Source of the DNA: Streptoalloteichus hindustanus
GTDB taxonomy: Bacteria; Actinomycetota; Actinomycetes; Mycobacteriales; Pseudonocardiaceae
Assembly: GCF_900129375.1 (NCBI RefSeq)
Contig: NZ_FQVN01000023.1
Location: 1 to 49,664 of the forward strand
Direction: 5' to 3'
Length of the DNA stretch: 49,664 bases
The notes beneath the pieces are model-generated. The model did no database searches. It saw nothing but the letters and a program-made list of their open reading frames with translations, and was not told where the DNA came from. Position numbers and translations under genes: made by a program. Of the stretch, positions 13,910-49,191 are shown piece by piece (the first letter of the stretch is position 1; every line of letters starts with the position of its first letter).

Positions 13910-13932
13910 GGCGCCCCGGCCGGCCGATCCAC

Positions 13933-13963: not shown

Positions 13964-13969
13964 GGACCT

Positions 13970-14806: not shown

Positions 14807-14827
14807 GTCGCCGATCCCCGGAGAGCG

Positions 14828-15826: not shown

Positions 15827-15838
15827 GGCCCCTCCCCC

Positions 15839-17239: not shown

Positions 17240-17252
17240 GGCGGGCCTCCGT

Positions 17253-18101: not shown

Positions 18102-18169
18102 TGGCGAATCCTGGTCACGCCAAGGTCGGGACCGGCAGTGGCAGGGTGTGCGCGTTTCGGCCGGCGACC

Positions 18170-18182
18170 GAACAGAGTGTTC
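18170..18182. promoter_or_regulatory. Operator dyad GAACA-GAG-TGTTC upstream of the catabolic operon
   Basis: Perfect 5+3+5 inverted repeat in the 121-nt gap between the PucR and nitrilase genes. Read on the other strand it is GAACACTCTGTTC, matching 12 of 13 bases at 20060-20072. Probable binding site of the PucR regulator. Confidence 0.6.
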
Positions 18183-18196
18183 AGCCCCGCCCGGCT

Positions 18197-18221
18197 CTGG
18201 CCGCCGGGAGGGCGGGGCCAG
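18197..18221 (-). terminator. Stem-loop directly after the PucR gene
   Basis: CTGGCCGCC (18197-18205) pairs with GGC-GG-GGCCAG (18211-18221) with a 2-nt bulge and 5-nt loop, beginning 1 nt past the PucR stop codon. Confidence 0.55.
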
Positions 18222-18222
18222 C

Positions 18223-19854: not shown

Positions 19855-19911
19855 CGGCCACCCCCTCCCGGTCCGCGCCAGTCGGCCCGCCGCACCGATC
19901 GCATGCCCTAC

Positions 19912-20043
19912 CAACCGAACGCCACACCGATCGAGCACCGCGCTGATCGAACGCCGCGCTGATCGAACGCCGCGCCAGCCGGAGTCCGCCCCTGCCGAAC
20001 AGCGGGCCAGTCGAACACTGCGCCGACCGAACACAACGTATCG
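19912..20043. repeat. Array of eight 16-bp direct repeats with CGAAC core (candidate regulator-binding array)
   Basis: The pentamer CGAAC or a variant starts at 19916, 19932 (CGAGC), 19948, 19964, 19980 (CGGAG), 19996, 20012 and 20028, an exact 16-bp period. The two central units, GATCGAACGCCGCGCT and its neighbour, differ at one base. Further CGAAC sites at 20046 and 20059 fall out of register. Because 16 is not a multiple of three, this is not a peptide repeat. It fills the divergent region between the PucR gene (ends its leader at 19855) and the transaminase gene. Confidence 0.75.
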
Positions 20044-20059
20044 CCCGAACCGGTATCAC

Positions 20060-20072
20060 GAACACTCTGTCC
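20060..20072. promoter_or_regulatory. Second copy of the GAACACTCTGTTC-type operator
   Basis: GAACACTCTGTCC differs at one base from the perfect dyad before the nitrilase gene. It lies at the downstream end of the 16-bp repeat array, 233 nt before the transaminase start. Confidence 0.5.
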
Positions 20073-20107
20073 ATAGCCGCGAGCGGCCTCGAAGCCCGAC
20101 ACTCGGC

Positions 20108-20135
20108 GCTGACCCCGCGTTGTCGCGGGGAGCAC
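20108..20135. repeat. Hairpin resembling a lone type I-E CRISPR repeat
   Basis: CCCCGCG-TTGT-CGCGGGG (20113-20130) followed by AGCAC gives the stem and 3' end typical of actinobacterial I-E repeats (ending GCGGGGAGCAC). There is no second copy at repeat-spacer distance and no cas gene, so it is recorded as a hairpin only. The remainder of 20136-20304 holds the GGGGAGG ribosome site of the transaminase and nothing else recognisable. Confidence 0.35.
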
Positions 20136-20304
20136 ACGGACCGGTGGCTGTGCGCGACGCCCCCTTTCGCGCACGGCCGCCGTCCCGCCCCGGATGCCCC
20201 CGCCGTCCCCACAACGCGGGCGCCACGACCACCGGCACCACGGCAGGGCCGCGACAGCGCCCCATCACCGGACACCCACCACAGCGCTCAGCAGGGGAGG
20301 ACCG

Positions 20305-21609
20305 ATGGCACACGCCGAGCTGCTGGCCCGGCACCGGGCGGTCATGCCGGCCTGGCTCACCCTGTACTACGACGAGCCGATCGAGATCACGCGCGGCTCC
20401 GGACGCCGGGTCGAGGACGCCGAGGGGCGGAGCTACCTGGACTTCTTCGCCGGCATCCTGACCAACGCGATCGGCTACGACATCGCGGAGATCAACGAGG
20501 CGATCACCGCGCAGGTCGCCAAGGGCGTCCTGCACACCTCCACGCTGTACCTGATCCGGAGCCAGGTCGAGCTGGCCGAGCGCATCGCCCGGCTGTCCGG
20601 CATCCCGGACGCCAAGGTCTTCTTCACCAACTCCGGCACCGAGGCCAACGAGACGGCGCTGATGCTGGCCACCCAGCACCGCCGCAGCAACCAGGTGTTG
20701 GCGCTGCGCAACTCGTACCACGGGCGCGCGTTCGGCACGGTGGCGATCACCGGCAACCGGGGGTGGTCGGCGACCTCGTTGAGCCCGCTCCAGGTCAGCC
20801 ACGTGCACGGCGGCTACCGCTACCGCAGCCCGTTCCGCCACCTCTCGGACGCCGACTACGTCGACGCCTGCGTCGCCGACCTGCGGGACGTGCTGGCCAC
20901 CGCCACGGCCGGCGACGTGGCGTGCATGGTCGTCGAGCCGGTCCAGGGCGTCGGCGGGTTCGCCATCCCGCCCAGGGGGCTGTTCGCGGCCTTCCGCGAG
21001 GTCCTCGACGAGCACGGCATCCTGCTCGTCTCGGACGAGGTGCAGACCGGCTGGGGCCGCACCGGCGACCACTTCTGGGGCATCCAGGCCCACGGCGTCG
21101 TGCCGGACGCGATGACCTTCGCCAAGGGGCTGGGCAACGGACTGGCGATCGGCGGGGTGGTGGCCAGGGGCGAGCTGATGGACGCCATCACCGCCCACTC
21201 GCTCTCGACCTTCGGCGGCAACCCGCTCGCCACCGCGGGCGCCGTCGCGATGCTGGACTACCTGGAGAACCACGACCTCCAGGCGAACGCGGCCAAGCAG
21301 GGCACCCGCCTGCTCGCCGGGCTGCGGGCCGCCACCGAGCGCAACGAGATCGTCGGCGAGGTCAGGGGCGTCGGCCTGATGATCGGCGTCGAGCTGGTCG
21401 AGCCCGGCGGCGACGCGCCGAGCCCGCGCGCGGCCGCCAGGGTGCTGGAGGAGACCCGGGCCAGGGGCCTGCTGGTAGGCAGGGGCGGGTTGCACGGCAA
21501 CGTGGTCCGGTTGGCCCCGCCGATGACGCTCACCGACGACGAGACCGAGGAGGGCCTGGCCGCGCTGACCGCCGCCCTGGAGAGCACGCGACAGGAGATG
21601 ACCCGGTGA
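20305..21609 (+). CDS. Class III (omega) aminotransferase, probable beta-alanine/beta-aminoisobutyrate transaminase
   Basis: 434 residues from ATG 20305 (GGGGAGG 4 nt upstream). PLP-binding features: TNSGTEANETALM (about 108-120), Asp244 in LVSDEVQTGWGR and the Schiff-base Lys274 in MTFAKGLGNG. The fold-type I class III family includes GABA, ornithine and beta-alanine:pyruvate transaminases. Context picks the last: it lies between the ureidopropionase operon and a CoA-acylating semialdehyde dehydrogenase, whose GTG overlaps its TGA by 4 nt. It would convert beta-alanine to malonate semialdehyde. The amino acceptor cannot be told. Confidence 0.92.
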   Translation: MAHAELLARHRAVMPAWLTLYYDEPIEITRGSGRRVEDAEGRSYLDFFAGILTNAIGYDIAEINEAITAQVAKGVLHTSTLYLIRSQVELAERIARLSGIPDAKVFFTNSGTEANETALMLATQHRRSNQVLALRNSYHGRAFGTVAITGNRGWSATSLSPLQVSHVHGGYRYRSPFRHLSDADYVDACVADLRDVLATATAGDVACMVVEPVQGVGGFAIPPRGLFAAFREVLDEHGILLVSDEVQTGWGRTGDHFWGIQAHGVVPDAMTFAKGLGNGLAIGGVVARGELMDAITAHSLSTFGGNPLATAGAVAMLDYLENHDLQANAAKQGTRLLAGLRAATERNEIVGEVRGVGLMIGVELVEPGGDAPSPRAAARVLEETRARGLLVGRGGLHGNVVRLAPPMTLTDDETEEGLAALTAALESTRQEMTR

Positions 21610-27688: not shown

Positions 27689-28537
27689 TCAGGACGACTC
27701 CGACACGGCGACGGCCCGGGGTCTGGGGGCGGGGTCACCCGCGGCGGCGACCAGGAAGCCGTGCTCGCCCCAGTCCCGGAGCCAGGTCCTGGCCAGGTCC
27801 CGGTCCACGTCGCGGAGCGCCTCGCCCAGCGGCGCGCGGCGCAGCAGCGACGTGAGCACGCGGTGGGCGTCGGCGGTCAGCTCGTGCACCCGCACCTGGA
27901 GGCCGTGCCGGGTCAGGGCGAGGAACACCGGCCGGGCCCTCGGCGGCACCTGCCCCCCGCCCTGACGCACCGCGGCCAGGTACTCGTGCACGGTGAACCC
28001 CGCCCGGAACAGGCGCAGGCAGGGGGCGGGGCCGAGCCGCGCCGACGGCCAGTCCTCCTCGGGCAGGTCGGCGAGCTCGGTGGCGGGCAGATCGTCCTCG
28101 CGGCCCGGTCCGTCGAGCACCTGGTTGTACAGCCGCTCGAACCGGGCGAGGTCGAGCACCATGTCGACGGTGGGATCGCGCCGCTCCGGCGGGAGCTGGG
28201 CGTCGGGGCGCGTGCGGGCGAGGTGGTCGACGAACTCCGCGTCGAACCGGCTCAACCGGTGCGACCGCGCGGGGTTGGCCTTCACGTGGTCGAGGACGAA
28301 CGCGTCGAAGACCTCCCTGCCGAGCAGCTGGATCAGCGCGGGGTGCAGCTCGCGCATCCGGGCCGCGAGGCGTCGCTGGTGGTTCCTGCGCAGGACCGCG
28401 AACCGCTGGCGCGGGGTGAGCGCGGCCGAGCCGGTGAGCAGCGAGTTGATCTCGGGTCCGGGTCCGTCCTGGGCCAGCAGCGCCCGCTGCAACCACCGCT
28501 GCGTCGCGAGCAGGTCCGGCTCGGGCGCCGCGGACAT
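27689..28537 (-). CDS. DUF2063 (HvfC/BufC-like) partner protein of DUF692
   Basis: 282 residues. The N-terminal half (about 8-100) has the DUF2063 pattern: LLATQRWLQRALL, then TPRQRFAVLRRNHQRRLAARM and HPALIQLLGREVFDAFVLDHV. The C-terminal half is a second helical/winged domain. In bufferin and methanobactin-like systems this protein is the RiPP-recognition partner of the multinuclear iron oxidase, presenting the precursor peptide. The ATG is 1 nt after the stop of the DUF692 gene (TGA-G-ATG), so the pair is translationally coupled. No BufA-type (DUF2282) precursor gene is nearby. Its last gene position ends the operon at a bidirectional palindrome. Confidence 0.85.
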   Translation of the reverse strand: MSAAPEPDLLATQRWLQRALLAQDGPGPEINSLLTGSAALTPRQRFAVLRRNHQRRLAARMRELHPALIQLLGREVFDAFVLDHVKANPARSHRLSRFDAEFVDHLARTRPDAQLPPERRDPTVDMVLDLARFERLYNQVLDGPGREDDLPATELADLPEEDWPSARLGPAPCLRLFRAGFTVHEYLAAVRQGGGQVPPRARPVFLALTRHGLQVRVHELTADAHRVLTSLLRRAPLGEALRDVDRDLARTWLRDWGEHGFLVAAAGDPAPRPRAVAVSESS

Positions 28538-28538
28538 C

Positions 28539-29399
28539 TCAGACCCCCGCCCACAACGCGGTCGCCGCGTGCCGGCGCGCCTTGTCCAGCTCGGCCAGCA
28601 GCACCGGGAACGCCGGGAGCTGGTCGTCCCACTCGACCACGGTGGGAGCGCCGCCGGTGAGCACGACCGCCAGCCGGTAGAGCTCCCACACGGCGTCGGA
28701 GATGGGGGTGTCCCGGCTGGCGACGGCGTGCGTGCCGTGGTGGGTGTGCCCGGACAGGTGCATCTCCACCACCCGGTGGTGGGGCAGCGCGCGCAGGTAC
28801 TCCACCGGGTCGAAGTCGTGATTCACCGCCGAGACGTGCACGTTGCTCACGTCGAGCAGCAGCCCGCAGTCGGCCTCGTCCGCCATCCGGGCCAGGAACT
28901 CCCACTCGGACAGCGTGGAGGCGGCGAACTCGAAGGCGCTGCTGGTGTTCTTCAGCACCAGCGGCCGTTCCAGCGCGTCCTGCACGGTGCGGATGCGCCG
29001 CACGAGGTGGCGCAACGACTCCTCGGTGCGGGGCATCGGCAGCACGGCGTGGGTGTTGACGCCGTCCACGCCGGTCCACCCGACGTGGTCGGACACCCAC
29101 TCGGCGCGGACCTCGTCGGCGAGCTCGCGCAGCCGGCCGAGGTAGCGGTAGTCGAGCCGGTCGCAGCCGCCGACGGACAGCGCCAGCCCGTGCAGGACGA
29201 CCGGGTACCGCTCGGCGATCTCGGCCAGCGCCCGGCGCCGGGCGCCGTGGGAGTCCATGAAGTCCTCCGTGACGACCTCGAAGAAGCCGAGCGCCGGCCA
29301 TCGCTGCCGGACGTAGTCCAGATGCGGCAGGCGCAGTCCCACGCCGAACCCGAGCCAGCGGGTGCCGAGCCGGCGGCGTGTGGGGGTTCCGGTCCTCAT
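28539..29399 (-). CDS. DUF692 (MNIO/HvfB/BufB-like) protein with altered metal-ligand motifs
   Basis: 286 residues, TIM-barrel DUF692 family: FGVGLRLPHLDYV at the start, VVLHGLALSVGG with His70, EWVSDHVGW with Asp104-His105, THAVLPMP with His117, LLLDVSNVHVSA with Asp183, EMHLSGH with His214/218, and VVEWD with Glu256. Active members are two- or three-iron oxidases that modify Cys, Asp or Asn in ribosomal peptides. Here the usual ENP(S/T) motif reads LKNTSS (Lys150 for Glu) and the usual D-x-H near residue 227-229 reads ASR. By hand alignment several iron ligands are therefore lost. ATG 29399 is set by GGAGGG 9 nt upstream; the frame extends to 29492 without one. Confidence 0.85.
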   Translation of the reverse strand: MRTGTPTRRRLGTRWLGFGVGLRLPHLDYVRQRWPALGFFEVVTEDFMDSHGARRRALAEIAERYPVVLHGLALSVGGCDRLDYRYLGRLRELADEVRAEWVSDHVGWTGVDGVNTHAVLPMPRTEESLRHLVRRIRTVQDALERPLVLKNTSSAFEFAASTLSEWEFLARMADEADCGLLLDVSNVHVSAVNHDFDPVEYLRALPHHRVVEMHLSGHTHHGTHAVASRDTPISDAVWELYRLAVVLTGGAPTVVEWDDQLPAFPVLLAELDKARRHAATALWAGV

Positions 29400-29470
29400 C
29401 AGCCAGATCCCTCCGCCGAGTGGTCGCCCCCGTTCGTAAGTAGCCCGGATGTCCGGCCGTTGCCAGCCAT
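29399..29470 (-). CDS. Possible 23-residue ORF coupled to the DUF692 gene
   Basis: ATG 29470 opens a 23-codon frame whose TGA shares its last base with the DUF692 ATG (TGATG). The peptide is Gly/Ser/Asn-rich with Asp15 and His... residues near its C-terminal half (NGGDHSAEG) and no Cys. A purine-rich GGGGGAG lies directly against the ATG, which is too close for good initiation. It may be a coupled leader, a peptide substrate, or chance read-through of the frame used in this non-coding gap. Confidence 0.2.
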   Translation of the reverse strand: MAGNGRTSGLLTNGGDHSAEGSG

Positions 29471-29484
29471 CTCCCCCGCCCGGA

Positions 29485-29526
29485 CCCGACATTCCGCTGT
29501 TCGAGGGAGTGTCGGGCCAGGCGGGC
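29485..29526 (-). terminator. Stem-loop between the MFS and DUF692 genes
   Basis: CCCGACA (29485-29491) and TGTCGGG (29520-29526) pair across 28 nt, just after the MFS gene stop. It may attenuate or end the MFS transcript ahead of DUF692. Confidence 0.35.
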
Positions 29527-33739: not shown

Positions 33740-33860
33740 GGGCTGGACAACTGAACACGCGCCGCACGGGGGAAGACCGGTCGAAGTCCGGCGCTGACCC
33801 GCAACGGTGGGTCGCGCGCCCGGGAGGCGCGCGGCGAGCCCGACCACCCGTGGCGGCGCG
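33740..33860 (+). promoter_or_regulatory. Cobalamin riboswitch
   Basis: The conserved core is readable: GGGGGAAGACCGGT at 33769-33781 region, CGAAGTCCGG, GCTGACCCGCAACGGT (33793-33808), a variable GC hairpin (GCGCGCCCGGGAGGCGCGC), and the B12-box-like CGAGCCCGACCACCCGTG (33835-33852). This matches actinobacterial AdoCbl riboswitches (RF00174). Ends are approximate. It sits 220 nt upstream of the first gene of the ECF operon and would turn the operon off when cobalamin is plentiful. Confidence 0.85.
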
Positions 33861-33941
33861 AACGGCTCCAACCACCGTCGAGGTCTGCGGGACGGAGCCT
33901 GGTGGGCGCCGTGCCCTCCTCCCGCCACGCGCACCGCCGGG

Positions 33942-33979
33942 GCCAGCGTTCCCTGGCAGCGTTTCCCGGGCGTTGCCAG
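33942..33979 (+). promoter_or_regulatory. Mutually exclusive hairpins in the riboswitch expression platform
   Basis: GCCAG (33942-33946), CTGGC (33953-33957) and GCCAG (33975-33979) can pair 1:2 or 2:3. The second option extends to CTGGCAGCG with CGTTGCCAG (8 of 9 pairs). This is the arrangement expected of a switch between alternative folds. The rest of 33861-34080 has no gene; the GAGGAGAA ribosome site is at 34069-34076. Confidence 0.4.
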
Positions 33980-34080
33980 GAGAGCGGGAAGGCGGGCGCG
34001 ACGCGTCGGCGGGCCGGTGGCGGCCGTGGACGCGGCTCGTCGGGCGGTCCGGGCGTGGACAGCGCACCGAGGAGAACGTC

Positions 34081-35448
34081 ATGGCCCCATCACGCCATCG
34101 CGGCCGCCGTGCCGCGTCCTTACTCGTCGTGCTCCTGGCCGCACTGGCGCTGGCGCTCCCGTCCACCCAGGGCGTCGCGCTGGCCGGGAGCACCCTCGAC
34201 CCCGCGGCGGCAGCGGCGGGCTGGGCCGGCCGCCAGCTGAAGGACGGCGAGCGGGTGGAGAGCCCGGCCGGAGCGGACTACGGCCTCACCGCCGACGTCG
34301 TGCTCGGCCTCGCCGCCACCGGCGTCGGCCGCGACGCGGCCGACAGGGCCACGACCTGGTTGTCCCGCAACGTCGACGCCTACTTCCGGGGCGGGAGCGG
34401 CAAGGACATCAACACCGGCGGTCTCGCCAAGCTGGCGCTCCTCGCCCAGGTCCAGCACCGCGACCCGAACGACTTCGGCGGCCAGGACCTCCTGTTGGCG
34501 CTGCACGAGCAGATGCGGGACGACGGCCAGTTCTTCCAGCTCCTCTACGGCAAGCCCGCCGCCACCACGTTCACCCAGTCCCTCGCCCTGCTGGCGCTGT
34601 ACCGCCAGGGCCGCGACGCGGTGCCCGCCAAGGCGGTCGACTTCCTCGTCCGCACCCGGTGCGCCGACGGCGGGTTCCCGGTCTTCTACTGGACCGAGCA
34701 GAGCGAGTGCCGCAGCGACACCGACGGGACGGGCATCGTCGTCCAGGCCCTGCTCGCGGTCGGCCGGGCCGACGCCGCTGCCCCGGCCCTGGACTGGTTG
34801 CAGGGCCGGCAGAACGCCGAAGGCGGCTTCGGCGGCGCCGGGCCGACCGCGCAGGCCAACTCCAACTCGACGGCGTTGGCGGTGCAGGCGCTGCGCGCGG
34901 GTGGTCGCGCCGAGGCCGCCGACCGGGGGCTCGCCTGGCTGCTGGGTCGCCAGGTCGGCTGCTCCGGGCCGGCGGTCGACCGGGGCGCGGTGGGCCACCA
35001 ACACCCCGTCGTGACGGGGTCGACGCTGCGCAGCACCGCTCAGGTCATCCCGGCGCTGGCCGGCAAGTCCCTCGCCGAGATCGACGGCGCGACCGGACGG
35101 CCGGACCTGCCCACCCTGATCTGCCCGCCCACGTCCAGCACCACCCCGTCGCCCACCTCCCCGACCGCGCCCCCGACGACCACGGCGGGCAACACGCCGA
35201 CGAGCAGCACGGCGCCGACCACCGCGGTGCCGGCTCCTGTCGCACCACCTGTCACGAAAATCCCCGCGGCACAGGGAAATCTCGGCGGCGGCCACAAGCC
35301 TCGCCCGCGGGCGGCGCGGACCAGTACCGAGTCCCTCGCCCGGACCGGAGCCGACGTCGGGGACCTCGTCGTGCTCGGCACTGTCCTGGTGTTCGCCGGA
35401 CTCACCCTGGTGGTGCTCGCCAGGACGCGGCGGAGGGCCGCCCGGTGA
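34081..35448 (+). CDS. Wall-anchored alpha/alpha-barrel protein (prenyltransferase/squalene-cyclase-repeat fold; intrinsic-factor alpha-domain-like)
   Basis: 455 residues. Signal peptide 1-36 (RRAASLLVVLLAALALALPSTQGVALAG). Residues 40-335 hold repeated helix-pair units with QW-like phrases: DGGFPVFYW, NAEGGFGG, NSNSTALAVQALRAGGR, STAQVIPALAG. These form the alpha6/alpha6 toroid of terpene cyclases and of the N-terminal domain of intrinsic factor/transcobalamin. No DxDD or DDxxD cyclase motif is seen, so it is a binder rather than an enzyme. A Thr/Pro-rich stalk (about 355-410) leads to a sorting signal LARTG (419-423), a hydrophobic segment and RTRRR, the LAxTG type used by sortase E. Downstream of a B12 riboswitch and overlapping the next gene by GTGA: probable extracellular cobalamin capture. 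Confidence 0.85.
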   Translation: MAPSRHRGRRAASLLVVLLAALALALPSTQGVALAGSTLDPAAAAAGWAGRQLKDGERVESPAGADYGLTADVVLGLAATGVGRDAADRATTWLSRNVDAYFRGGSGKDINTGGLAKLALLAQVQHRDPNDFGGQDLLLALHEQMRDDGQFFQLLYGKPAATTFTQSLALLALYRQGRDAVPAKAVDFLVRTRCADGGFPVFYWTEQSECRSDTDGTGIVVQALLAVGRADAAAPALDWLQGRQNAEGGFGGAGPTAQANSNSTALAVQALRAGGRAEAADRGLAWLLGRQVGCSGPAVDRGAVGHQHPVVTGSTLRSTAQVIPALAGKSLAEIDGATGRPDLPTLICPPTSSTTPSPTSPTAPPTTTAGNTPTSSTAPTTAVPAPVAPPVTKIPAAQGNLGGGHKPRPRAARTSTESLARTGADVGDLVVLGTVLVFAGLTLVVLARTRRRAAR

Positions 35449-36353
35449 TCTGCTCACCGCGCGCTTTCCCCACCGTCACCGCACTTCTGGCGTCCGCGCT
35501 GCTCTTACCAGCGCTGACGCGGATTCCGCAGGCGGAGGCGGCGGAAGGCTGTGGCGGAGTTCTGGTCGTCGTCGAAACACGTGCCGTGCCGGACAACCCG
35601 GGGTACGGCACCAGAACCGGTTGCGCGAACGACCCCCGGGACGGATTCGACGCCCTGCGCCAGGCAGGTTTCGACGTCACGCTGGGCACCGGCGCCTACG
35701 CGGGCGGTTTCGCCTGCGCGATCGACCGCTCGCCCCGCGCGGGCTGCGGCGTCGTCGACCGGGACACCTACTGGTCCTACTGGTACATGCTCCCGGACAC
35801 GGACACCTGGGTGTACAGCAACAGCGGCGCGAGTTACCGCACGCCGCCGAAAGGCAGCATCGAGGCCTGGGTGTGGCAGGACGAGGGAGACAACGAGCCA
35901 CCACAGCCCAGGAGCGCGGTGAAACCTCCCGCTCCCCCGCCCCACCAGGGCGGCACGCCGGTCAACCCTCCGCCCGGCGGTGGCCCACCGGACCGGAACC
36001 CCGGCGGCGACGGGCCGAATCCCGCCCCGCGCCATCCCGACGGGCAGCACCCGAACGATCCCGCGCCGCAGAACGAGGAGCGACCACCCCAGGAGCCGAG
36101 CGGGACCCCAACGGAAACGCCGTCCCCATCCTCCTCTGCGCCAGCCTCCGCCACCTCGACCCCAACAGGAACACCCACCACGTCGGCGGGCCCGGGGAGC
36201 GGCGCTCCGAAACCCCCATCTCCCGACCACACCACCCATATGTCCAAAGAGGACACTTCGCGCGGCTTCCCGTGGCCGTTGGCCATCGGGATCGTCGCGG
36301 CGCTCGTCCTGGCCGGCGGCGTCTCCTGGCAGATCCGCAGGAGACGTTCTTGA
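35445..36353 (+). CDS. Membrane-anchored DUF4430 (transcobalamin beta-domain-like) protein
   Basis: 302 residues from GTG 35445 (GTGA overlap). Signal peptide 1-32 (TVTALLASALLLPALTRIPQAEA). Residues 38-150 are a DUF4430-type beta domain: GCANDPRDGFDALRQAGFDV, four Cys that could form two disulfides, and TYWSYWYMLPDTDTWVYSNSGASYRTPPKGSIEAWVW, whose WxxW-rich strand resembles the C-terminal cobalamin-contacting domain of intrinsic factor. A long Pro/Asn/Ser-rich stalk (about 155-270) and a C-terminal TM helix with RRRRS (277-302) follow; no sortase motif. It would hold the second half of a B12-binding pair at the cell surface. Confidence 0.82.
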   Translation: MICSPRAFPTVTALLASALLLPALTRIPQAEAAEGCGGVLVVVETRAVPDNPGYGTRTGCANDPRDGFDALRQAGFDVTLGTGAYAGGFACAIDRSPRAGCGVVDRDTYWSYWYMLPDTDTWVYSNSGASYRTPPKGSIEAWVWQDEGDNEPPQPRSAVKPPAPPPHQGGTPVNPPPGGGPPDRNPGGDGPNPAPRHPDGQHPNDPAPQNEERPPQEPSGTPTETPSPSSSAPASATSTPTGTPTTSAGPGSGAPKPPSPDHTTHMSKEDTSRGFPWPLAIGIVAALVLAGGVSWQIRRRRS

Positions 36354-36400
36354 CCAACCCTGACCACCAGCCCCGCACTGCCATCGAGCGCAGGCTCACA

Positions 36401-36413
36401 GTCCACAGTGGAC
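36401..36413. repeat. Dispersed palindrome GTCCAC-A-GTGGAC before ecfT
   Basis: In the 97-nt gap between the DUF4430 gene and ecfT, 38 nt before the ecfT start. A relative, GTCC-AAAGA-GGAC, is at 36242-36254 within the DUF4430 gene; with the ACACTTCG that follows it, it matches the head of long repeat copy 1 at 23407. Confidence 0.55.
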
Positions 36414-36450
36414 ACCCAGGGTCGGAAGCGGTCGCGTCGGGAGTCGCGGG

Positions 36451-37581
36451 GTGAGCGGCTCGCCCCGCACGCTGCACCCCGTCGCGTGGTGGGGATGGGC
36501 GGCCGGTGTCGCGGTCGCGGCGAGCCGCACCACCAACCTCGTGCTGCTGCTCCTGCTCGCGATCGCCGCCGGCTACGTCGTCGCGGCGCGGCGGACGGAG
36601 GCCCCCTGGGCGTCCGCCTACCGCGTCTTCCTGCGGATCGCCCTCGTGATCGTGGCGATCCGGGTGGCGCTCCAGGCGTTGGTGGTCGGCTCGGGCGGGG
36701 CCACCGTGCTGGTCGTCCTGCCGCAGCTCCCCCTGCCCGCGTGGCTGACCGGCGTCCGGGTCGGTGGACCGGTGACGGCGGAGGCGGTGCTCGCGGCGTT
36801 GGGCGACGGCGGTCGGCTGGCCGCGGTCATGGTCTGCTTCGGCGCGGCGAACGCCCTGGCCAGCCCGTCCCGCCTGCTGCGCACCCTGCCGAGGGCGCTG
36901 CACGAGCTGGGGGTCGCGGTGGTCGTGGCGTTGTCGGCGGCGCCCCAGCTCGTGACCGCGGTCGGCCGGGTCCGCCGAGCCCGCCGGCTGCGCGCCCTGC
37001 CACACCGCGGGGTCCGGGGCGCGCTGACGATCATCGGCCCGGTGTTGGAGGAGGCGTTGGACCGGGCGATGACCACGGCCGCCGCCCTCGACGCCCGGGG
37101 GTACGGCCGGCGGGCCATCGTGCCCGTCGGACGCCGCAGGGCCACGGCCACCGCGCTGCTCGGCGGGCTGCTCAGCGTGGTGCTCGGGCTGTACGGACTG
37201 CTCGACGGCTCGACGACCCTCCACATCGGACCGCTCGGCGCGGTCACGACCGGCACGCTCGGCCCCGTACTGGTGTTGGCGGGCGCGGTCGGGTGCGTCG
37301 TCGGCCTGCGGATGGGTGGGCGGGCAGTGGTCCGCACGCGCTACCGACCCGACCGGTTCCTGCTCCCCGAGTGGCTCGCGCTGGCGTCCGGGACCGCCTG
37401 CGCGGGGCTCTTCGTCGCCACGGCCGCGCTCGGCGGCGTCGACTCGGGCCTCGCGCCCGACCCGTGGTCGCTGCAACCACCCGGGCTCCCGCCCCTGGCC
37501 GCGCTGGGCGTGCTCTGCGCCCTGCTCCCGGCGCACCTGACTCCACCCCCACCACCCGCCGGAACCCCGGAGGACACATGA
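36451..37581 (+). CDS. ecfT: ECF transporter transmembrane T component
   Basis: 376 residues, about eight hydrophobic segments. The CbiQ/EcfT coupling helices show the two Ala-Arg-Gly-like motifs: RRARRLRALPHRG (about 173-185) and AAALDARGYGRR (about 210-221). EcfT couples the ATPases to the substrate-binding S component. GTG 36451 has GGGAG 7 nt upstream, and the stop overlaps the ATPase gene (ATGA). It belongs to a complete ECF set behind a cobalamin riboswitch, so the substrate is very likely cobalamin or a precursor. The C-terminal third with three more hydrophobic segments is longer than in typical EcfT proteins. Confidence 0.88.
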   Translation: MSGSPRTLHPVAWWGWAAGVAVAASRTTNLVLLLLLAIAAGYVVAARRTEAPWASAYRVFLRIALVIVAIRVALQALVVGSGGATVLVVLPQLPLPAWLTGVRVGGPVTAEAVLAALGDGGRLAAVMVCFGAANALASPSRLLRTLPRALHELGVAVVVALSAAPQLVTAVGRVRRARRLRALPHRGVRGALTIIGPVLEEALDRAMTTAAALDARGYGRRAIVPVGRRRATATALLGGLLSVVLGLYGLLDGSTTLHIGPLGAVTTGTLGPVLVLAGAVGCVVGLRMGGRAVVRTRYRPDRFLLPEWLALASGTACAGLFVATAALGGVDSGLAPDPWSLQPPGLPPLAALGVLCALLPAHLTPPPPPAGTPEDT

Positions 37582-39197
37582 ATCCCGTCGTCCACTGGGA
37601 GTCCGTGTCGTTCCACTACCCGGGAGCGACCCGCCCGACACTGTCCACTGTGGACATGGCGGTGCCCGAGGGCGAGCTGTGCCTGGTGATCGGCAGCACG
37701 GGCAGCGGGAAGTCCACGTTGTTGCGCACGGTCAACGGCTCCGTCCCGCACGCGACCGGCGGAACGCTGCGCGGCCGGGTCCGCACGGCCGGGCGGGACA
37801 CGGCGGCGCACCGGCCCCGGGACCTGGCCGACGTCGTCGGCGTGGTGCCCCAGCAACCGGCCGACGCCTTCGTCGCGGACACGGTCGAGGAGGAGATCGC
37901 CTACGGGATGGAGTGCCTCGGCGTCGCCCCCGAGGTGATGCGCCGCCGCGTCGAGGAGACGCTCGACCTGCTCGGCATGGCCGAGCTCCGCGCCCGCCCG
38001 CTGACCGCGCTCTCCGCCGGCCAGCAGCAACGCGTCGCGCTGGCCGCCGCGTTCGCCGCCCAGCCCGCGCTCCTCGTCCTCGACGAGCCGACCAGCGCGC
38101 TCGACCCGCCGGCCGCCGAGGAGGTCCTCGGGGCCGTGCAACGCCTCGTGCACGACCTCGGCACCACGGTCCTCCTCGCCGAGCACCGCCTCGAACGGGT
38201 CGCGCAGTACGCCGACAGCGCGCTGCTCGTCCCGGGAGCCGGTCGGCCCCCGACCCTCGGCGCGACGGCAGACGTCCTGGCGGAGGCGCCCGTGGCGCCC
38301 CCGGTGGTCGAGCTGTCCCGGCTCCTGGACTGGAACCCGGTCGCGCTCAGCGTCCGGGACGCGCGCCGCCGCGCGGCCCGGCTGCCCGTGCCGGTCTCCG
38401 CACCGCCCCTCGCGACAGCGCGAGAACGAGGCGACGTGGTCGCGAGCGCACGCGGGCTCACCGCTCGGCACGGTCCCGTTCCAGCGCTGCGCGGAGTGGA
38501 TCTCGACCTGCACGCCGGGGAGGTCGTGGCCCTGATGGGCCGCAACGGCGCCGGCAAGTCCACGTTGCTCTCCTGCCTGGCGGGCCTGCACCGGCCCCGG
38601 TCCGGCCGCGTCACCGTGAACGGCGGCGACCCGGCCCGCCAGCGCCGCCGCGACGTCGCGCGGTCGGTCGGCCTCGTCCCCGCCGAACCGGCCGACCTGC
38701 TCCTGGCCGACCGGGTGGACCGGGAGTGCGCGGCGGCGGACCGCGAGGCCGGCGTCCCGGCCGGCCGCACCGCCGCCCTCCTCGCCGAACTCGTCCCCGA
38801 CGTGCCCGGCGCCGCGCATCCCCGGGACCTGTCCTGCGGGCAACGCCTCGCCATGGCCCTCGCCGTGCTCCTGGCCCGCGCGCCCCGCCTCCTGCTGCTC
38901 GACGAGCCGACGCGCGGCCTGGACTACCCCGCCAAGCACCGCGCCGCCGGTGTGCTGCGGCGACTGGCGGCGGCGGACCGCTGCGTCCTGCTCGTGACGC
39001 ACGACGTCGAGCTCGCCGCCCAGGTGGCCGACCGGGTCGTGGTCCTCGCGGAGGGCGAGGTGATCACCGACGCCCCCGCCGCGGCCGCGCTGTCCGCGTC
39101 ACCCGCGTTCGCGCCCCAGGTGGCGAAGGTGTTCGCGCCCGCCCCGCTGCTGACCGTTGACGACGTGCGGCGCTCGCTCCTGGGCGGCGGCGCGTGA
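37578..39197 (+). CDS. ecfA: Fused dual ATPase of the ECF transporter (EcfA1-EcfA2)
   Basis: 539 residues with two ABC ATPase domains on one chain. Domain 1 (about 5-230): GSTGSGKST, LSAGQQQRVALAAA, LLVLDEPTSALD, and LAEHRLERV as switch His. Domain 2 (about 290-520): GRNGAGKST, LSCGQRLAMALA, LLLLDEPTRGLD, VTHDVE. Both sites look competent, although the signature Gly-Gly reads AG and CG. Fused EcfAA proteins are common in actinobacterial ECF systems. ATG 37578 has GGAGGACAC upstream and overlaps ecfT; its stop overlaps the S component gene (GTGA). It powers import by ATP hydrolysis at the cytoplasmic face. Confidence 0.93.
   Translation: MNPVVHWESVSFHYPGATRPTLSTVDMAVPEGELCLVIGSTGSGKSTLLRTVNGSVPHATGGTLRGRVRTAGRDTAAHRPRDLADVVGVVPQQPADAFVADTVEEEIAYGMECLGVAPEVMRRRVEETLDLLGMAELRARPLTALSAGQQQRVALAAAFAAQPALLVLDEPTSALDPPAAEEVLGAVQRLVHDLGTTVLLAEHRLERVAQYADSALLVPGAGRPPTLGATADVLAEAPVAPPVVELSRLLDWNPVALSVRDARRRAARLPVPVSAPPLATARERGDVVASARGLTARHGPVPALRGVDLDLHAGEVVALMGRNGAGKSTLLSCLAGLHRPRSGRVTVNGGDPARQRRRDVARSVGLVPAEPADLLLADRVDRECAAADREAGVPAGRTAALLAELVPDVPGAAHPRDLSCGQRLAMALAVLLARAPRLLLLDEPTRGLDYPAKHRAAGVLRRLAAADRCVLLVTHDVELAAQVADRVVVLAEGEVITDAPAAAALSASPAFAPQVAKVFAPAPLLTVDDVRRSLLGGGA
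37643..37655. repeat. Dispersed palindrome GTCCAC-T-GTGGAC in ecfA
   Basis: Codons 22-26 of the ATPase gene; extends to 15 bp as T...A. Confidence 0.55.
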
Positions 39198-40033
39198 CCG
39201 GGGACTTCATCGTCCACAGTGGACGTACACCGAGCCTGCCCAGGATCGGCCCGCGGGCCGCGGTCGCCCTCGTGCTGGCCTCGGTCGTCGGGGTGGTCGG
39301 TTTCGGCTGGCCGTTCGTGGCCCGCTCCGACTCCCCGGTCGCGCACGAGCGGGACGCCCCGTGGCTGTTCGCGGTGCTCACCGTGCTCGTCCTCGCCGTG
39401 GTGCTCGCCGCCCTGCTCGACGGCGCGGCCGACGCCAAGACGGTGGCCCTGCTCGGCGTGCTGTCGGCCGTGGGGGCGGCGTTGCGCCCCTTCGGCGCGG
39501 GGGCGGCCGGGATCGAGCCGATGTTCGTCGTGTTCGTCCTCGGCGGCCGGGTGCTCGGGCCGGCGGCCGGGTTCGCACTCGGCAGCACCGCGATGTTCGC
39601 CTCGGCGCTGCTGACCGCCGGCGTCGGCCCGTGGTTGCCGTTCCAGATGCTCACCGCGTCCTGGATCGGGCTGGGCGCGGGACTCCTGCCCCGCCGACCC
39701 GCCGGCGGCCGGCTGGAGGTGCTCGCGCTCGCGGGCTACGCGGTCGTCGCCGGCCTCGGCTACGGCCTCGTGATGAACCTCTGGTTCTGGCCGCTCACCG
39801 TGGACCACGCCTCGCCGCTGGGCTTCGCCGCCGGCGAGGGCGCGCTGGCCAACCTGCGCCGCTACGCCGCGTTCTACCTGGCGACCTCGCTGGGCTGGGA
39901 CGTGCCGCGCGCCCTGCTCAACGCGGGCCTGGTGGCACTGGCCGGCTCCCGGGTGCTCACCGCGCTGCGCAGGGCGGTCCACCGGGCCGCTTTCGACACG
40001 CCGGTGACGATCGTCCGGCCGCCTACGAGCTGA
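39194..40033 (+). CDS. ECF transporter S component, probably cobalamin-specific
   Basis: 279 residues with six or seven hydrophobic segments. GIEPMFVVFVLGGRVLGPAAGFALGSTAMFASALLTAGVGPWLPFQMLTASWIGLGAGLLP is the S-component core, with the small-residue-rich first helices that contact EcfT (AVALVLASVVGVVGF). The QxxxA and G-rich GSTAMF pattern is as in the ECF S family used by actinobacteria for cobalamin/CblT-like uptake. Start GTG 39194 overlaps the ATPase stop. The B12 riboswitch and the two surface proteins make cobalamin the likely ligand. It overlaps the convergent small secreted protein gene by 11 nt. Confidence 0.85.
   Translation: MTGDFIVHSGRTPSLPRIGPRAAVALVLASVVGVVGFGWPFVARSDSPVAHERDAPWLFAVLTVLVLAVVLAALLDGAADAKTVALLGVLSAVGAALRPFGAGAAGIEPMFVVFVLGGRVLGPAAGFALGSTAMFASALLTAGVGPWLPFQMLTASWIGLGAGLLPRRPAGGRLEVLALAGYAVVAGLGYGLVMNLWFWPLTVDHASPLGFAAGEGALANLRRYAAFYLATSLGWDVPRALLNAGLVALAGSRVLTALRRAVHRAAFDTPVTIVRPPTS
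39212..39224. repeat. Dispersed palindrome GTCCAC-A-GTGGAC at the start of the S component gene
   Basis: Codons 7-11; extends to a 15-bp perfect dyad C...G. Confidence 0.55.
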
Positions 40034-44518: not shown

Positions 44519-47500
44519 TCACACCCTGCTGGGTCGGGGCGCGGGCAGCAGCCCGGTCTCCACGCAGTGGTCGAGGTACCGGTGCAGCAGCGCGCGGTCG
44601 GCCGCCGGGCACTCGATCCCCGTGCCCGCCAGTCCCCGCCGCAGGTTCTCGGACCTCACGGCGCCGAGCCGGAAAGCGGGCGCGTCCTCGGCCTGGAGGT
44701 CGAAGAACACCAGGGTGGCCGTGCTCTCGGCGTCCGATCCCCCGGTGTCCGCGGCGACCCTCGCGCACCACTCCGGGACGTCCAGGTGGTCCACCGGATA
44801 GCCGTAGTCGCGCACCCACCCCGCGAGGTCGGTCAGCCGCACGGCCGGCACCGGCGCGACGTTGACCACCCGTCCCGCCTCGCCGGGTCGCGGCGGCGTC
44901 GACGAGAGCCGGACCACGGCGCGGGCGACGTAGTCGACCGGCGTCCAGGTCTCGGCCACGGCGAGCGCCGGCAGCGCGCCGGCCCGGATGCCGGGCAGCA
45001 GCAGCCGCCAGACCAGGTCCTGCTCGTTGACCACGCCGGTGTCCGGCGCGCCCACGACCCGGCCGAGCCGGTAGACGGTCACCGGCAGGCCGCGCTCGCC
45101 GGCCTGCTCCACCAGCCGCTCGGCGACCCACTTGCTCTGCTGGTAGCCGTCCCGGAGCCCGGCGTGGGCGGGCACGAACGCCTCCGGCACCTCGGGGCTC
45201 ACCGCGTCCGGCGGTCCGACCGCCAGCGTCGAGACGTGGTGGACCGGCACCGGCCGCTCCGCCGCGGCGAGCCGGAGCACCTCGCGGGTGCCGACGACGT
45301 TCGCGGCCCGCAGGCTCCGGTACTCGCGGACCACGCTCACCACGGCCGCGTTGTGGTAGATCACGTCGCAGGTGCGCGCGAGCTCGGCGAACCGGTCGGG
45401 GTCGAGTCCGAGCCGGGGCCGGGCCAGGTCGGCGGGCAGCGCGACGACCCGGTCGGCGACCGCGGCGACCGGCAGGCGCTGCCGGGTCAGCGCGTCCCGC
45501 ACCCGGCGGGTCGCGCCCGCCGCGTCCTCGGCACGGACGAGGCAGACGACCTGCGCGTCGGTGCTGGTCAGGAGCTCGTTGAGCAGGTGGGCGCCGACGA
45601 ATCCGGTGGCCCCGGTGAGCAGCACCCGACGCGGGCGCTCCGCGAGGACGGGCACGAGACCGCTCGGCACGACGTCCTCGCCGAGCACGGCGTCGGCCGC
45701 GGCGAGCGGCGGCAGGCCCTCGTCGGCCCGCCCCGCCCCGTGCTCCTGGTCCAGCGCCTCGGCCAGGGCGGCGGCCGTGGGGTGCCGGAACAGCGTCGCC
45801 ACCGGCACGGTGCGCCCCAGCTCGACCCCGAGCCGGTTGGCCACCTGGATCGCCTGCAGCGACTGGCCGCCCAGCTCGAAGAAATCGTCCTGTGTGGACA
45901 GACCGGGCACGCCGAGGACCTCGTGCCACACCCGGAGCACGGCCCGCTCGGCGTCAGTGGTGGCCGTCGACTCGGCAGGGCCCTCCTCGGGCCGGAAACC
46001 CCTGGCGCGCAACGCCTTTCGGTCGATCTTGCCCGAGCTGGTCCTCGGCAGGCGGTCGGTCACGACCACGGAGGCCGGGACCACGGCCGCCGGCAGCGAC
46101 GCGCGCAGGTGCGCGCGCAGCTCGGCGGTGGTCGGCACACCAGTGCCGTTGGCGCTGTTGGTGTCAGCGGTGCCGATGTCAGCCGGCACGACGTGCGCGG
46201 ACAGCCGCTTCACGCCGCCGTCCAGCACGTGGCCGACGACGGCCGCCTCCCGCACCCCGGGGTGCGCCAGCAGCACCGTCTCGATCTCGGTCGGGTCGAC
46301 CCGATGCCCGCTGATCTTGAACTCGTCGTCCACCCGGCCCACGAACACCAGCGCGCCGTCCGCCCGGCACCGGGCCAGGTCGCCGGTCCGGTACGCGCGG
46401 GGACGCCCCGGCATCGCCGACAGCACGACGAACCGGGCCTCGTTCAGCTCGGGCCGGCCCAGATAGCCGTTGGCGAGACCGCCGCCGAGCAGGCACAGCT
46501 CCCCCGTCTCCCCCATGGGCACGGGCCGCCGGTTCCGGCCGACCACGACGGCGGTGACACCCGGCAGCGGCCGGCCGATCGGCACCTCGTCGACGACGTG
46601 GCCGGCCGCTCCGTCGCCGCTGAGCGTCGCGACGGTCGCCACGACCGTGGCCTCGGTCGGCCCGTAGGTGTTGAGCAGCCGGACGTCGGGGCTGACGCTC
46701 GCGCGCCACCGCGCCACCCGCTCGGGCAACGCGGCCTCCCCGCCGATGACGACCGCCCGCACCGAGGCGGGGAGCGCGGCGGCCCCGGTCGACACGCCGT
46801 AGGCGACCTCGTGCCAGAAGGCGGTCGGCAGGTCGAGCACGGTGATGCCGAGTTCCGCGCAGGCATTGAGGAAGCCGGGCACCGAGTCCAGCATCTCCTC
46901 GGTGCGCACGACGAGCGTGGCGCCGGCGCACAGGGTCAGGAAGATCTCCTCGACGCTGGCGTCGAAGTGCAGGGGCGCGAACTGGAGCACGCGGTCGTCG
47001 CCCCGGAACTCGTACCGGTGGGTCGCACCGGCCACGAAGTTCGCGAGCGCGCCCCGGCCGACGGCCACGCCGTTGGGCTGCCCGGTGGAACCGGAGGTGT
47101 AGATGACGTAGGCCGGGTGTTCCGGCCGTGGCGTCGGCGGTTCCGCCTGGATCTCCGCCCCGGTTCCCGCCCGCTCGTCGAGCAGGACGGTCCGGCCGGG
47201 GAAGTCCTGCGGGACCGCGTCGACGTGTTCGGCGGTGGTGACCAGCAGGCGCGGCCCGGCGTCCGCCAGCACCGCCGACGTGCGGTTGCGCGGGCCGTGC
47301 GGATCGAGCGGCAGGTAGCCGGCGCCGGCGAACAGGACACCGAGGAACGCGACGACCGCGTCGACTCCTCTCGGGAGCACGACCGCGACCGGCAGGTCGG
47401 GTCCCGCGCCCAGCTCCCCGAGGCGCGCGGCCAGATCCCGCGCCCGTGCCACGAGATCGCCGTAGGTGATCCGCACGTCCCCGTGCTCCACGGCCACCGC

Positions 47501-48922
47501 GTCCGGCTGGCGGGCCGCCTGCTCGCCGACCAGGTCGGTCACGTCGCGCGCCGGTGTCGGCAGCGGGCCACCGTCGAGTACGGAAGGTGTTGCCCCGGAC
47601 GAGGCAACAGGAAGCGAAACGTCCATTTCGGACAGTGGAGCGTCGGGTGTCGCGATTGCACTGTCCAACAGGGACAGGAAGGACCGCTGGTGCGCGGCGA
47701 GGTCCTCCGCGGTGTAGAGCGCGGGGTTGGCGTCGAAGTCGAGTCGGGGACTCATGCCGTCCGACCGGTGGTAGACCGCGATCGACAGGTCCTCGACCGG
47801 ACCGGCGGAGACGTTGTGCACCGTTCCCCGGTGTCCGGCGAACCGCAGGTCGTAGTCGAACGGCATGATGTTGACCACCGGGCCGAACAGCCGCCGGTCG
47901 CCGCCGATCAGCCTGAGCTCCCGCTTGAGGTCCTCGTAGCGGTAACGCTGGTGCGGCCGGACGCGCCGCAGCTCGGCGGTCACCACGGCGACGAGGTCGA
48001 GCAGGCTGGCGTCAGGGGCGACCGGCACCCGAAGCGGCACGATGTTCATCGCCATGCAGGGCACCCGCAGCGAGGCGGACCCCATCCGGCCCATCACCGG
48101 CAGGCCGAGGACGACCTCCCCCGCCCCCGTCGCCCTGGCCAGGTAGCCCGCGACGGCCGCCAGCAGAACCTCGGGCCAGGACGTCTTCCCCTGGCGGGCC
48201 ACCGCGCCGACAGCGTCCATTGTGGACGCGTCGATCGCGGTGGTCTCGCGCAGGGACTCCCAGGACATCGGGGCGACGCGCTCGGCGAGCCCGACGACCT
48301 CCGGCCGGTCGGCGAGCCGCTCCAACCAGAACTCGCGGTCCCGGCGGAACCGGTCGGAGGACCGGTACTCGACGTCCTCCGCCACCACGGCTTCCAGCGA
48401 GCCGAAGGATGCGGCGGGCGCCTCCGCGCCGGCGGCCGTGGCGGTGTAGAGCTCCGCCACCCTGCGCGCCAGCAGTGAGTGCCCGAACCCGTCCAGCGCG
48501 ATGTGGTGGACCCGCTGGTACCAGCGGAACCGGTCCGACCCCGTGCGCAGCAACGCCTGCGTGAACAGCGGGCCCCGGGCGAGGTCCACGACGCGGGCGA
48601 GGTCCGCCCGCATCCACGCGTCGGCCGCCGCGTCCGGGTCGGGCTCGCCGCTCACGTCGACGTGCGGGAAGTCCCAGTCCGCGACCGGGTCCGGCGTCTG
48701 CCACACCCCCTCGGCGTCCGCGTCGAACCGGACGTGCAGGGTCTCGGCCTCCGCGACCGCCGCGCGGACGGCCGCCTCGAACACGGCGGGATCCACCGGG
48801 CCGGAGATCTCGACGTACTCGGCCGCGTTGTAGACGGGGCTGTCCTCGTCGATCCGCTGGCCGGACCAGATCCCGGCCTGGGCGGCCGTCACCGGCCGAC
48901 GCGCGCCACTGGGGAGGGGCAT
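44519..48922 (-). CDS. Single-module siderophore NRPS, C-A-PCP-reductase (MxcG/myxochelin synthetase-like)
   Basis: 1467 residues from ATG 48922. Condensation domain about 8-450, EntF-like, with HHIALDG at 139-145. Adenylation about 475-995: YTSGSTGQPNGV, FDASVEEIF, NTYGPTE, YRTGDL, KISGHRVDPTEIE, RTSSGKIDRKAL. By hand alignment to GrsA the pocket reads Asp-Ala-Glu-Asp-Val-Gly-Thr-Val-Val-Lys; the two acidic residues suit a basic side chain such as lysine. PCP Ser1021 in LGGQSLQAI. Thioester reductase about 1095-1465 with GATGFVG and YQQSK (Tyr/Lys near 1255), so the product leaves as aldehyde or alcohol. With isochorismatase and a free aryl carrier protein upstream, it would join 2,3-dihydroxybenzoate to lysine amines. 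Confidence 0.92.
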   Translation of the reverse strand: MPLPSGARRPVTAAQAGIWSGQRIDEDSPVYNAAEYVEISGPVDPAVFEAAVRAAVAEAETLHVRFDADAEGVWQTPDPVADWDFPHVDVSGEPDPDAAADAWMRADLARVVDLARGPLFTQALLRTGSDRFRWYQRVHHIALDGFGHSLLARRVAELYTATAAGAEAPAASFGSLEAVVAEDVEYRSSDRFRRDREFWLERLADRPEVVGLAERVAPMSWESLRETTAIDASTMDAVGAVARQGKTSWPEVLLAAVAGYLARATGAGEVVLGLPVMGRMGSASLRVPCMAMNIVPLRVPVAPDASLLDLVAVVTAELRRVRPHQRYRYEDLKRELRLIGGDRRLFGPVVNIMPFDYDLRFAGHRGTVHNVSAGPVEDLSIAVYHRSDGMSPRLDFDANPALYTAEDLAAHQRSFLSLLDSAIATPDAPLSEMDVSLPVASSGATPSVLDGGPLPTPARDVTDLVGEQAARQPDAVAVEHGDVRITYGDLVARARDLAARLGELGAGPDLPVAVVLPRGVDAVVAFLGVLFAGAGYLPLDPHGPRNRTSAVLADAGPRLLVTTAEHVDAVPQDFPGRTVLLDERAGTGAEIQAEPPTPRPEHPAYVIYTSGSTGQPNGVAVGRGALANFVAGATHRYEFRGDDRVLQFAPLHFDASVEEIFLTLCAGATLVVRTEEMLDSVPGFLNACAELGITVLDLPTAFWHEVAYGVSTGAAALPASVRAVVIGGEAALPERVARWRASVSPDVRLLNTYGPTEATVVATVATLSGDGAAGHVVDEVPIGRPLPGVTAVVVGRNRRPVPMGETGELCLLGGGLANGYLGRPELNEARFVVLSAMPGRPRAYRTGDLARCRADGALVFVGRVDDEFKISGHRVDPTEIETVLLAHPGVREAAVVGHVLDGGVKRLSAHVVPADIGTADTNSANGTGVPTTAELRAHLRASLPAAVVPASVVVTDRLPRTSSGKIDRKALRARGFRPEEGPAESTATTDAERAVLRVWHEVLGVPGLSTQDDFFELGGQSLQAIQVANRLGVELGRTVPVATLFRHPTAAALAEALDQEHGAGRADEGLPPLAAADAVLGEDVVPSGLVPVLAERPRRVLLTGATGFVGAHLLNELLTSTDAQVVCLVRAEDAAGATRRVRDALTRQRLPVAAVADRVVALPADLARPRLGLDPDRFAELARTCDVIYHNAAVVSVVREYRSLRAANVVGTREVLRLAAAERPVPVHHVSTLAVGPPDAVSPEVPEAFVPAHAGLRDGYQQSKWVAERLVEQAGERGLPVTVYRLGRVVGAPDTGVVNEQDLVWRLLLPGIRAGALPALAVAETWTPVDYVARAVVRLSSTPPRPGEAGRVVNVAPVPAVRLTDLAGWVRDYGYPVDHLDVPEWCARVAADTGGSDAESTATLVFFDLQAEDAPAFRLGAVRSENLRRGLAGTGIECPAADRALLHRYLDHCVETGLLPAPRPSRV
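48215..48227. repeat. Dispersed palindrome GTCCA-TTG-TGGAC in the NRPS gene
   Basis: Within the condensation-domain region; extends to a 17-bp perfect dyad GC...GC. Confidence 0.5.
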
Positions 48923-48948
48923 GGGTCTTTCCGTTCCGCCGGGGCCGC

Positions 48949-49191
48949 TCAGCGCGGCAGTCGGGTGGACAGCAGCTCCCACCAGGCGGCCAGGGACGGC
49001 CGCTCGGCCAGCTCGACGAAGGTGACCTCGACGCCGGCGGCCCGCCACCGCTCGACGAGGCTCATGATGCGCACCGAGTCCAGGCCGGTGTCGACGAGCT
49101 CGTCGTCCACGGCGATGTCCGCCGGCTCCAGGTAGAGGACCTCGGCGAGGTCCGCGCGCACGCTGTCGAGGGTCATGGTCTGGTCGGGCAT
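48949..49191 (-). CDS. Free-standing aryl carrier protein
   Basis: 80 residues. The phosphopantetheine site is LVDTGLDSVRIMSLVERW, with Ser38 in GLDS; GLDSxR is typical of aryl carrier proteins for 2,3-dihydroxybenzoate or salicylate (the ArCP domain of EntB/DhbB). ATG 49191 follows AGGAG at 6-nt spacing. The next gene (NRPS) starts 26 nt on, and isochorismatase ends 134 nt before. In most catechol clusters this domain is fused to the isochorismatase; here it is separate. A DHB-AMP ligase, outside the window, would load it. Confidence 0.9.
   Translation of the reverse strand: MPDQTMTLDSVRADLAEVLYLEPADIAVDDELVDTGLDSVRIMSLVERWRAAGVEVTFVELAERPSLAAWWELLSTRLPR

Follow-up and report, generated by a model that had tools for sequence, protein, structure and literature searches.

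A window of 49,664 bases, one complete contig (C5) within the 7.28 Mb genome of Streptoalloteichus hindustanus, was found to carry a cobalamin riboswitch followed by five plus-strand open reading frames (ORFs) spanning 34081-40033. The genes, the folds of their products, and the RNA were established by computation. We consider it likely that this operon serves corrinoid uptake under B12 control, with two surface half-proteins, a secreted alpha/alpha toroid protein and a secreted, membrane-anchored beta protein, capturing cobalamin and delivering it to the energy-coupling factor (ECF) importer encoded by the other three genes.

Riboswitch and operon layout

The original prediction described five linked genes, and this arrangement was confirmed. 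Adjacent ORFs overlapped by 4 nt at three junctions (35445-35448, 37578-37581, and 39194-39197), and the single intergenic gap, of 97 nt (36354-36450), lay between genes 2 and 3. The ATG of the first gene (34081) was preceded by GAGGAG. The nearest relative in the genome set (G001), a member of the same genus, also carried the operon.

The riboswitch aptamer was placed at 33744-33871 on the plus strand, with its core at 33771-33828 and a B12-box-like GAGCCCGACCACCC at 33836-33849. An Rfam scan of the window at the gathering score returned no match, and a permissive Rfam search scored the core at 20.3 bits (E 0.0075) against a cut-off of 31.5. In the loci of relatives, RF00174 exceeded the cut-off at 10 places in 9 loci; seven of these elements preceded the first toroid, beta, or fused gene (L025, L026, L027, L028, L029, L030, and L033), and the remaining three were separate cobalamin elements, all in L030. 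Scanning the window and 80 loci by pattern, we found 103 cores preceded by a GGAA-like box; a B12-box-like GAGYM followed 97 of these. A few of these cores lay outside the present operon type, for example in L030 at 2287, L049 at 7487, and L068 at 19976.

For covariation, 52 elements out of 88 distinct ones extracted were aligned, and RNAalifold returned 18 pairs, both sides having changed in 8 of them. Paired cells amounted to 97.6%, compared with 84.4% in shuffled alignments. Both-side changes numbered 110 against 31.2 ± 4.2, a count reached in none of 500 shuffles, and the number of pairs with such a change (8 versus 6.7) was matched in 26 of the 500; these controls ignore kinship among the 52 elements. 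Sliding the structure lowered paired cells to 60.1% or less, a control that was partly favoured because the structure came from the same alignment. One helix pair was G-C in 34 sequences and C-G in 18. A conserved core, a B12 box, and compensatory helix changes were therefore present ahead of a B12-type operon, and as the element recurred in relatives with covarying helices, we counted the window's copy as real despite its low score, bearing out the predicted cobalamin riboswitch.

Downstream of the aptamer, a hairpin at 33875-33895 (plus strand) carried a conserved GTCGAGG-like motif, and 88 of 89 distinct elements contained the corresponding pattern [GC]TCG[ATC]GG. Pairing between the base after this pattern and a core base was possible in 62 of 88 elements, compared with 47 expected, and impossible in 26. 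The hairpin is perhaps a kissing-loop or expression-platform arm. A TGCGG motif after the riboswitch was also considered (27 of 97, background 0.17) and was dropped in favour of the [GC]TCG[ATC]GG hairpin.

Two surface proteins and an ECF importer

The first gene (34081-35448, plus strand) encodes a protein of 455 aa with a signal peptide, as read from the translation, and a C-terminus composed of LARTG, a hydrophobic stretch, and RRRAAR. Two Pfam families exceeded their cut-offs, Prenyltrans (32.1 bits, cut-off 26.5) and SQHop_cyclase_C (27.3 bits, cut-off 26.1), and the toroid part was placed at about 34204-35124. The alpha/alpha-barrel protein with a sorting signal expected from the original prediction was thus borne out, and its assignment as an alpha/alpha toroid by sequence was firm. 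The closest PDB sequences were those of squalene-hopene cyclase, and by sequence the toroid is nearer to squalene cyclases than to intrinsic factor. Since the Pfam and PDB matches were of cyclase type and none to intrinsic factor or transcobalamin was convincing, the more specific identity as an intrinsic-factor alpha domain was left without sequence support; a match between the toroid and a human intrinsic-factor stretch (17 columns, E 0.0079, probability 5) was counted as no evidence. DxDD is the catalytic motif of terpene and squalene cyclases, and it was kept in 1 of the 64 toroids compared, the window's among them. All 64 also matched the NCBIfam "SCO2321 family membrane protein" model (NF053823) at E<=0.001, the window protein scoring 112 bits against a cut-off of 300.

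The second gene (35445-36353, plus strand) encodes a protein of 302 aa whose translation read as a signal peptide, a beta domain (35541-35903), a Pro-rich linker, and a hydrophobic C-terminus. The AlphaFold model of the domain, built with 73 rows, had a predicted local distance difference (pLDDT) score of 85.5 and a predicted template modelling (pTM) score of 0.82. The modelled strand and helix order was E-E-H-E-E-E-E, as in a beta-grasp fold whose helix is followed by a hairpin, and such an insert marks the transcobalamin-like beta-grasp clade in the available part of PMC1796856. In a Foldseek search of the PDB, ranks 1-16 were all transcobalamin, intrinsic factor (2pmv), or haptocorrin (4kki), with probabilities of 0.98 to 1.00, E-values of 0.009 to 0.1, and TM-scores of about 0.5 to 0.6. 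Rank 17 was 3u7z; probabilities were 0.96-1.00 over ranks 1-17 and fell to 0.25 at rank 18. The domain as modelled is a transcobalamin/intrinsic-factor-type beta-grasp fold.

The original prediction had called this a DUF4430 protein with a transmembrane anchor. The hydrophobic C-terminus and a fold of the DUF4430 kind were found, and the label by sequence was rejected: PF14478 did not match the window protein at E<=1, nor any of 73 domains of the beta family at E<=0.1, nor any of 16 in a smaller set, the window being included in both sets. Profile against profile, the beta family was linked weakly to 22 DUF4430 domains taken from other genomes in the same phylum, with an E-value of 0.0003 and a probability of 40. 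The NCBIfam "SCO2322 family protein" model (NF040672) was matched by 16 of 16 beta domains at E<=0.1, window included, the window protein scoring 18.8 bits against a cut-off of 85. The sole PF14478 match in this genome lay outside the operon (G000:C24:55737-55892, minus strand, 29.1 bits; L001, L038). Of the proposal that the two halves of intrinsic factor occur here as separate surface proteins, secretion, anchoring, and the beta fold held up, and a closer kinship of the toroid with intrinsic factor's alpha domain is no more than tentative.

The remaining genes formed a complete ECF set within the operon, with an EcfT, two ATPase domains, and an S component together. Protein 3 (36451-37581) matched the Pfam CbiQ/EcfT family at 21.3 bits (E 2.4e-4), below the cut-off of 25; its operon position was conserved, and it is a predicted EcfT/CbiQ-type transmembrane protein. 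Protein 4 (37578-39197) matched ABC_tran at 185.5 bits over two stretches, which points to a fused EcfA-EcfA' ATPase. Protein 5 (39194-40033) matched ECF_trnsprt at 38.9 bits (cut-off 30.7) and is the presumed substrate-binding membrane subunit. All three genes lie on the plus strand, and Pfam thereby upheld the anticipated EcfT, fused EcfA, and S component, with the EcfT match under cut-off.

Pairing of the halves and competing explanations

The beta family was found in 27 of 100 related genomes, our own included. Strong toroid matches (E<=1e-19) occurred in 26 of the 100, all of them within the 27 beta carriers (Fisher p 4e-23). This cut-off was set post hoc at a gap in the match list, the next match being 5.5e-13; at the looser E<=0.001, 69 genomes matched, and the weaker matches, read from partial, repeat-region alignments, look like terpene-cyclase-type ORFs. 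The sole beta carrier lacking a strong toroid match (G083) had the beta and ECF genes.

A scan of named genomes with a 9-toroid alignment gave 64 loci in Pseudonocardiaceae, Micromonosporaceae, Streptomycetaceae, a Kribbella, and binned genomes of Geodermatophilaceae, Corynebacteriales, and Nitriliruptoraceae (families inferred from record titles). The system was present in Streptomyces, Micromonospora, Saccharothrix, and kin. A beta gene was found in 56 of these loci, EcfT in 51, and EcfT, EcfA, and the S component together in 49, while in 53 the query toroid had a riboswitch core at most 500 nt upstream; as contig ends cut some loci, these counts are lower bounds. The co-occurrence of the pair with the riboswitch and ECF genes, which the original prediction had raised, was accordingly seen at the level of loci. 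In the 49 loci with all three ECF genes, toroid and beta numbers were equal in 41 (2:2 in 29, 1:1 in 10, and 3:3 in 2) and unequal in 8 (1:2 in 4, 3:2 in 3, and 4:3 in one, where a toroid is split by a run of N).

The window encodes the two modules in two genes. One-ORF beta-toroid-toroid chains were present in 5 of the 64 loci (L061, L072, L073, L090, and L101), and loci of other relatives held further fusions (beta-toroid-toroid in L029 and beta-toroid in L035). The pairing of the halves was therefore backed by their co-occurrence, by natural fusions, and by mostly equal copy numbers. By a simple hydropathy cut-off, 52 of 102 complete toroid ORFs combined L[AP]xTG with a C-terminal hydrophobic stretch, whereas 53 of 100 complete beta ORFs had a hydrophobic C-terminus and 5 carried L[AP]xTG. 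The window's anchors followed the same split, with the sorting signal on the toroid and a plain hydrophobic C-terminus on the beta protein.

Several chains carried tandem double toroids (L061, L063, L064, L072, L073, L081, L090, L097, and L101). By eye, a conserved Asn-rich motif seems to have disappeared from the first toroid of L101 and its relatives, as though one of the rings had become structural. A second toroid-beta pair was observed in the same genome (L037, G000:C12:78000-92000, at 6266-8619 on the minus strand), with no ECF genes or riboswitch core found nearby, and a C-terminal extension replaced the hydrophobic anchor of its beta protein. G001 held a beta gene similar to that of L037 (L039), with no toroid found adjoining.

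By analogy with known families, from which binding, hand-over, and the direction of regulation are taken, scarce B12 would let the operon be expressed through the riboswitch. Anchored to wall and membrane, respectively, the toroid and the beta protein could then close on a corrinoid in the manner of transcobalamin's two domains, and the loaded pair would pass cobalamin to the S component for import by EcfT and the fused EcfA, driven by ATP. According to the available part of PMC5599065, the alpha and beta domains of human transcobalamin, expressed apart, join only with cobalamin, and the same had earlier been reported for intrinsic factor. As separate transcobalamin domains join upon cobalamin addition, a two-chain carrier is mechanistically plausible. 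Cobalamin might even act as glue between a toroid fixed to the wall by sortase and a membrane-held beta half beside the importer, making capture and delivery one ligand-driven step; we regard this as a tentative and rather doubtful extension. If true, the cell would possess a two-part receptor despite having no outer membrane, and the split pair of actinobacteria would stand as its own branch within the lineage from which animal intrinsic factor came.

A number of results weighed against uptake by such a pair. With the full toroid profile, intrinsic factor and transcobalamin were not among the best 60 of 76 and 60 of 95 PDB matches, and a C-terminal toroid sub-profile gave three weak PDB matches, to squalene-hopene cyclase only. 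No Foldseek E-value for the beta domain fell below 0.001, so that the fold assignment depends on how consistent the hit list is. The S component had no match to PDB sequences at E<=1 and matched no CbrT-type family in the family-model search. Among the 64 loci, no riboswitch core was found ahead of the query toroid in 11 and no beta gene in 8. The L101 beta-toroid-toroid chain was modelled with 43 further rows, free toroids being aligned to the second toroid and free betas to the beta part; helical repeats were seen (mean pLDDT 85.8), and with a pTM of 0.54 the domains had no firm placement relative to one another, so that the model speaks neither for nor against a pocket between them. In Foldseek, the first 28 ranks of the whole fused chain were nearly all terpene or squalene cyclases by title, with transcobalamin appearing from rank 29. 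The need for a second B12 route was also not obvious, because the host has CobN, CbiC, and a riboswitch-led FecCD-like permease with a binding protein.

The substrate could be related to B12 without being B12 (cobinamide or another corrinoid precursor, a lower-ligand base, or cobalt), an option we judged unlikely while granting it some weight. CbiQ/CbiO-type subunits serve cobalt too, riboswitch control shows only regulation by B12, and most carriers had the B12 synthesis gene cbiC; on the other hand, the first 16 structural neighbours of the beta domain were animal cobalamin carriers, and Pfam found no cobalt-type CbiM or CbiN subunit among the five proteins. It is highly improbable that the toroid is an exported type II terpene cyclase with an incidental neighbourhood, as the near-absence of DxDD, the signal peptide and sortase-type anchor, and the linkage to the riboswitch, beta gene, and ECF genes across several families all argue against an enzyme to which the Pfam, PDB, and fused-chain Foldseek matches would otherwise point.

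A corrinoid importer in which the halves form no joint clamp seemed distinctly unlikely. In such an arrangement the beta protein alone, or each protein alone, would bind, or one would only position the other near the membrane. The absence of a strong toroid match in G083 and the lack of a firm domain arrangement in the L101 model would fit it, as would the isolated transcobalamin beta domain, which was crystallised with cobalamin (PMC5599065, available part). The presence of both halves in 26 of 27 carriers, their equal copies in 41 of 49 loci, and the natural fusions argue instead for joint capture by the pair, which we favour.

With regard to B12 physiology, the host genome encodes CobN directly behind a cobalamin riboswitch, together with CbiC, and so the organism probably makes B12 itself. 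Another riboswitch (42.5 bits; G000:C28, L112, about 6360-9640) lay ahead of genes whose translations read as a FecCD-like permease and, more distally, a protein resembling a binding protein; together they are probably a second, BtuCDF-type route of B12 import. The idea that the system exists because its carriers are B12 auxotrophs was unsupported: cbiC was present in 20 of 27 carriers and 63 of 73 non-carriers, and hence absent in 7 of 27 versus 10 of 73 (p 0.23). The scavenging first envisaged thus calls for a qualification, the host probably being a B12 producer too. The system suggests that B12-producing bacteria also salvage B12.

Known systems and neighbouring genes

Burroughs et al. proposed in 2007 that bacterial surface proteins combining a toroid with a transcobalamin-like SLBB domain, encoded with CbiO/CbiQ, scavenge B12 (PMC1796856). 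As far as the available part of that paper describes them, those systems share with ours a secreted beta-grasp with a post-helix hairpin, an alpha/alpha toroid, and CbiO/CbiQ operons. They differ in hosts (low-GC Gram-positives, planctomycetes, and some euryarchaea, versus actinobacteria), in their common single-chain architecture versus two chains in the window, and in the usual lack of key B12 synthesis enzymes among their hosts, whereas the present carriers mostly have cbiC. The main text of that paper nowhere uses the term riboswitch, whereas the present operon is riboswitch-led, and none of the 73 present beta domains matched PF14478, the family of those systems.

Animal intrinsic factor, transcobalamin, and haptocorrin likewise combine an alpha/alpha toroid with a beta domain, the nearest solved fold to protein 2. 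They are one-chain carriers, whereas the window pair comprises two surface-anchored chains with putative binding and a toroid lacking a convincing sequence link. ECF-CbrT (PMC5997447) resembles the importer in its EcfT, ATPases, and cobalamin S component, the last presumed here; the available part of that report mentions no extracellular capture protein. It differs in that the present S component had no PDB sequence match and the present EcfA is one fused chain. NF053823 and NF040672 cover the family distantly, with the window proteins far below their cut-offs, and their names give no function.

We found no description of the actinobacterial toroid-beta pair in searches of an open-access library. 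The new elements are the split branch in actinobacteria, the riboswitch ahead of it, and the finding that it occurs mostly in genomes with B12 synthesis genes; the branch is without a named function in present family models. The idea itself of B12 scavenging by such proteins dates from 2007, on the evidence of the accessible text of PMC1796856. B12 capture outside the membrane by Gram-positive importers has been little explored, and a two-protein intrinsic-factor analogue under B12 control would be a simple candidate, masked by labels like "SCO2321 family membrane protein". Such an analogue is also relevant to the suggestion, made in 2007, that intrinsic factor and transcobalamin came to animals from bacteria.

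Other genes in the window were noted. Near its edge, a non-ribosomal peptide synthetase gene (44519-49048, minus strand) with condensation, adenylation, carrier, and thioester-reductase domains scored 2259 bits to the myxochelin synthetase MxcG (cut-off 2300) and is probably a catecholate siderophore gene. At 27689-29492 on the minus strand, an MbnB/TglH/ChrH-type modification enzyme for ribosomally synthesised and post-translationally modified peptides adjoined a DUF2063 protein, a possible cluster for such a peptide. The stretch 5042-21609 held an NCS1-type symporter, a dihydropyrimidinase over cut-off, a weak PmfR-like match, and an aminotransferase, and looks like pyrimidine catabolism.

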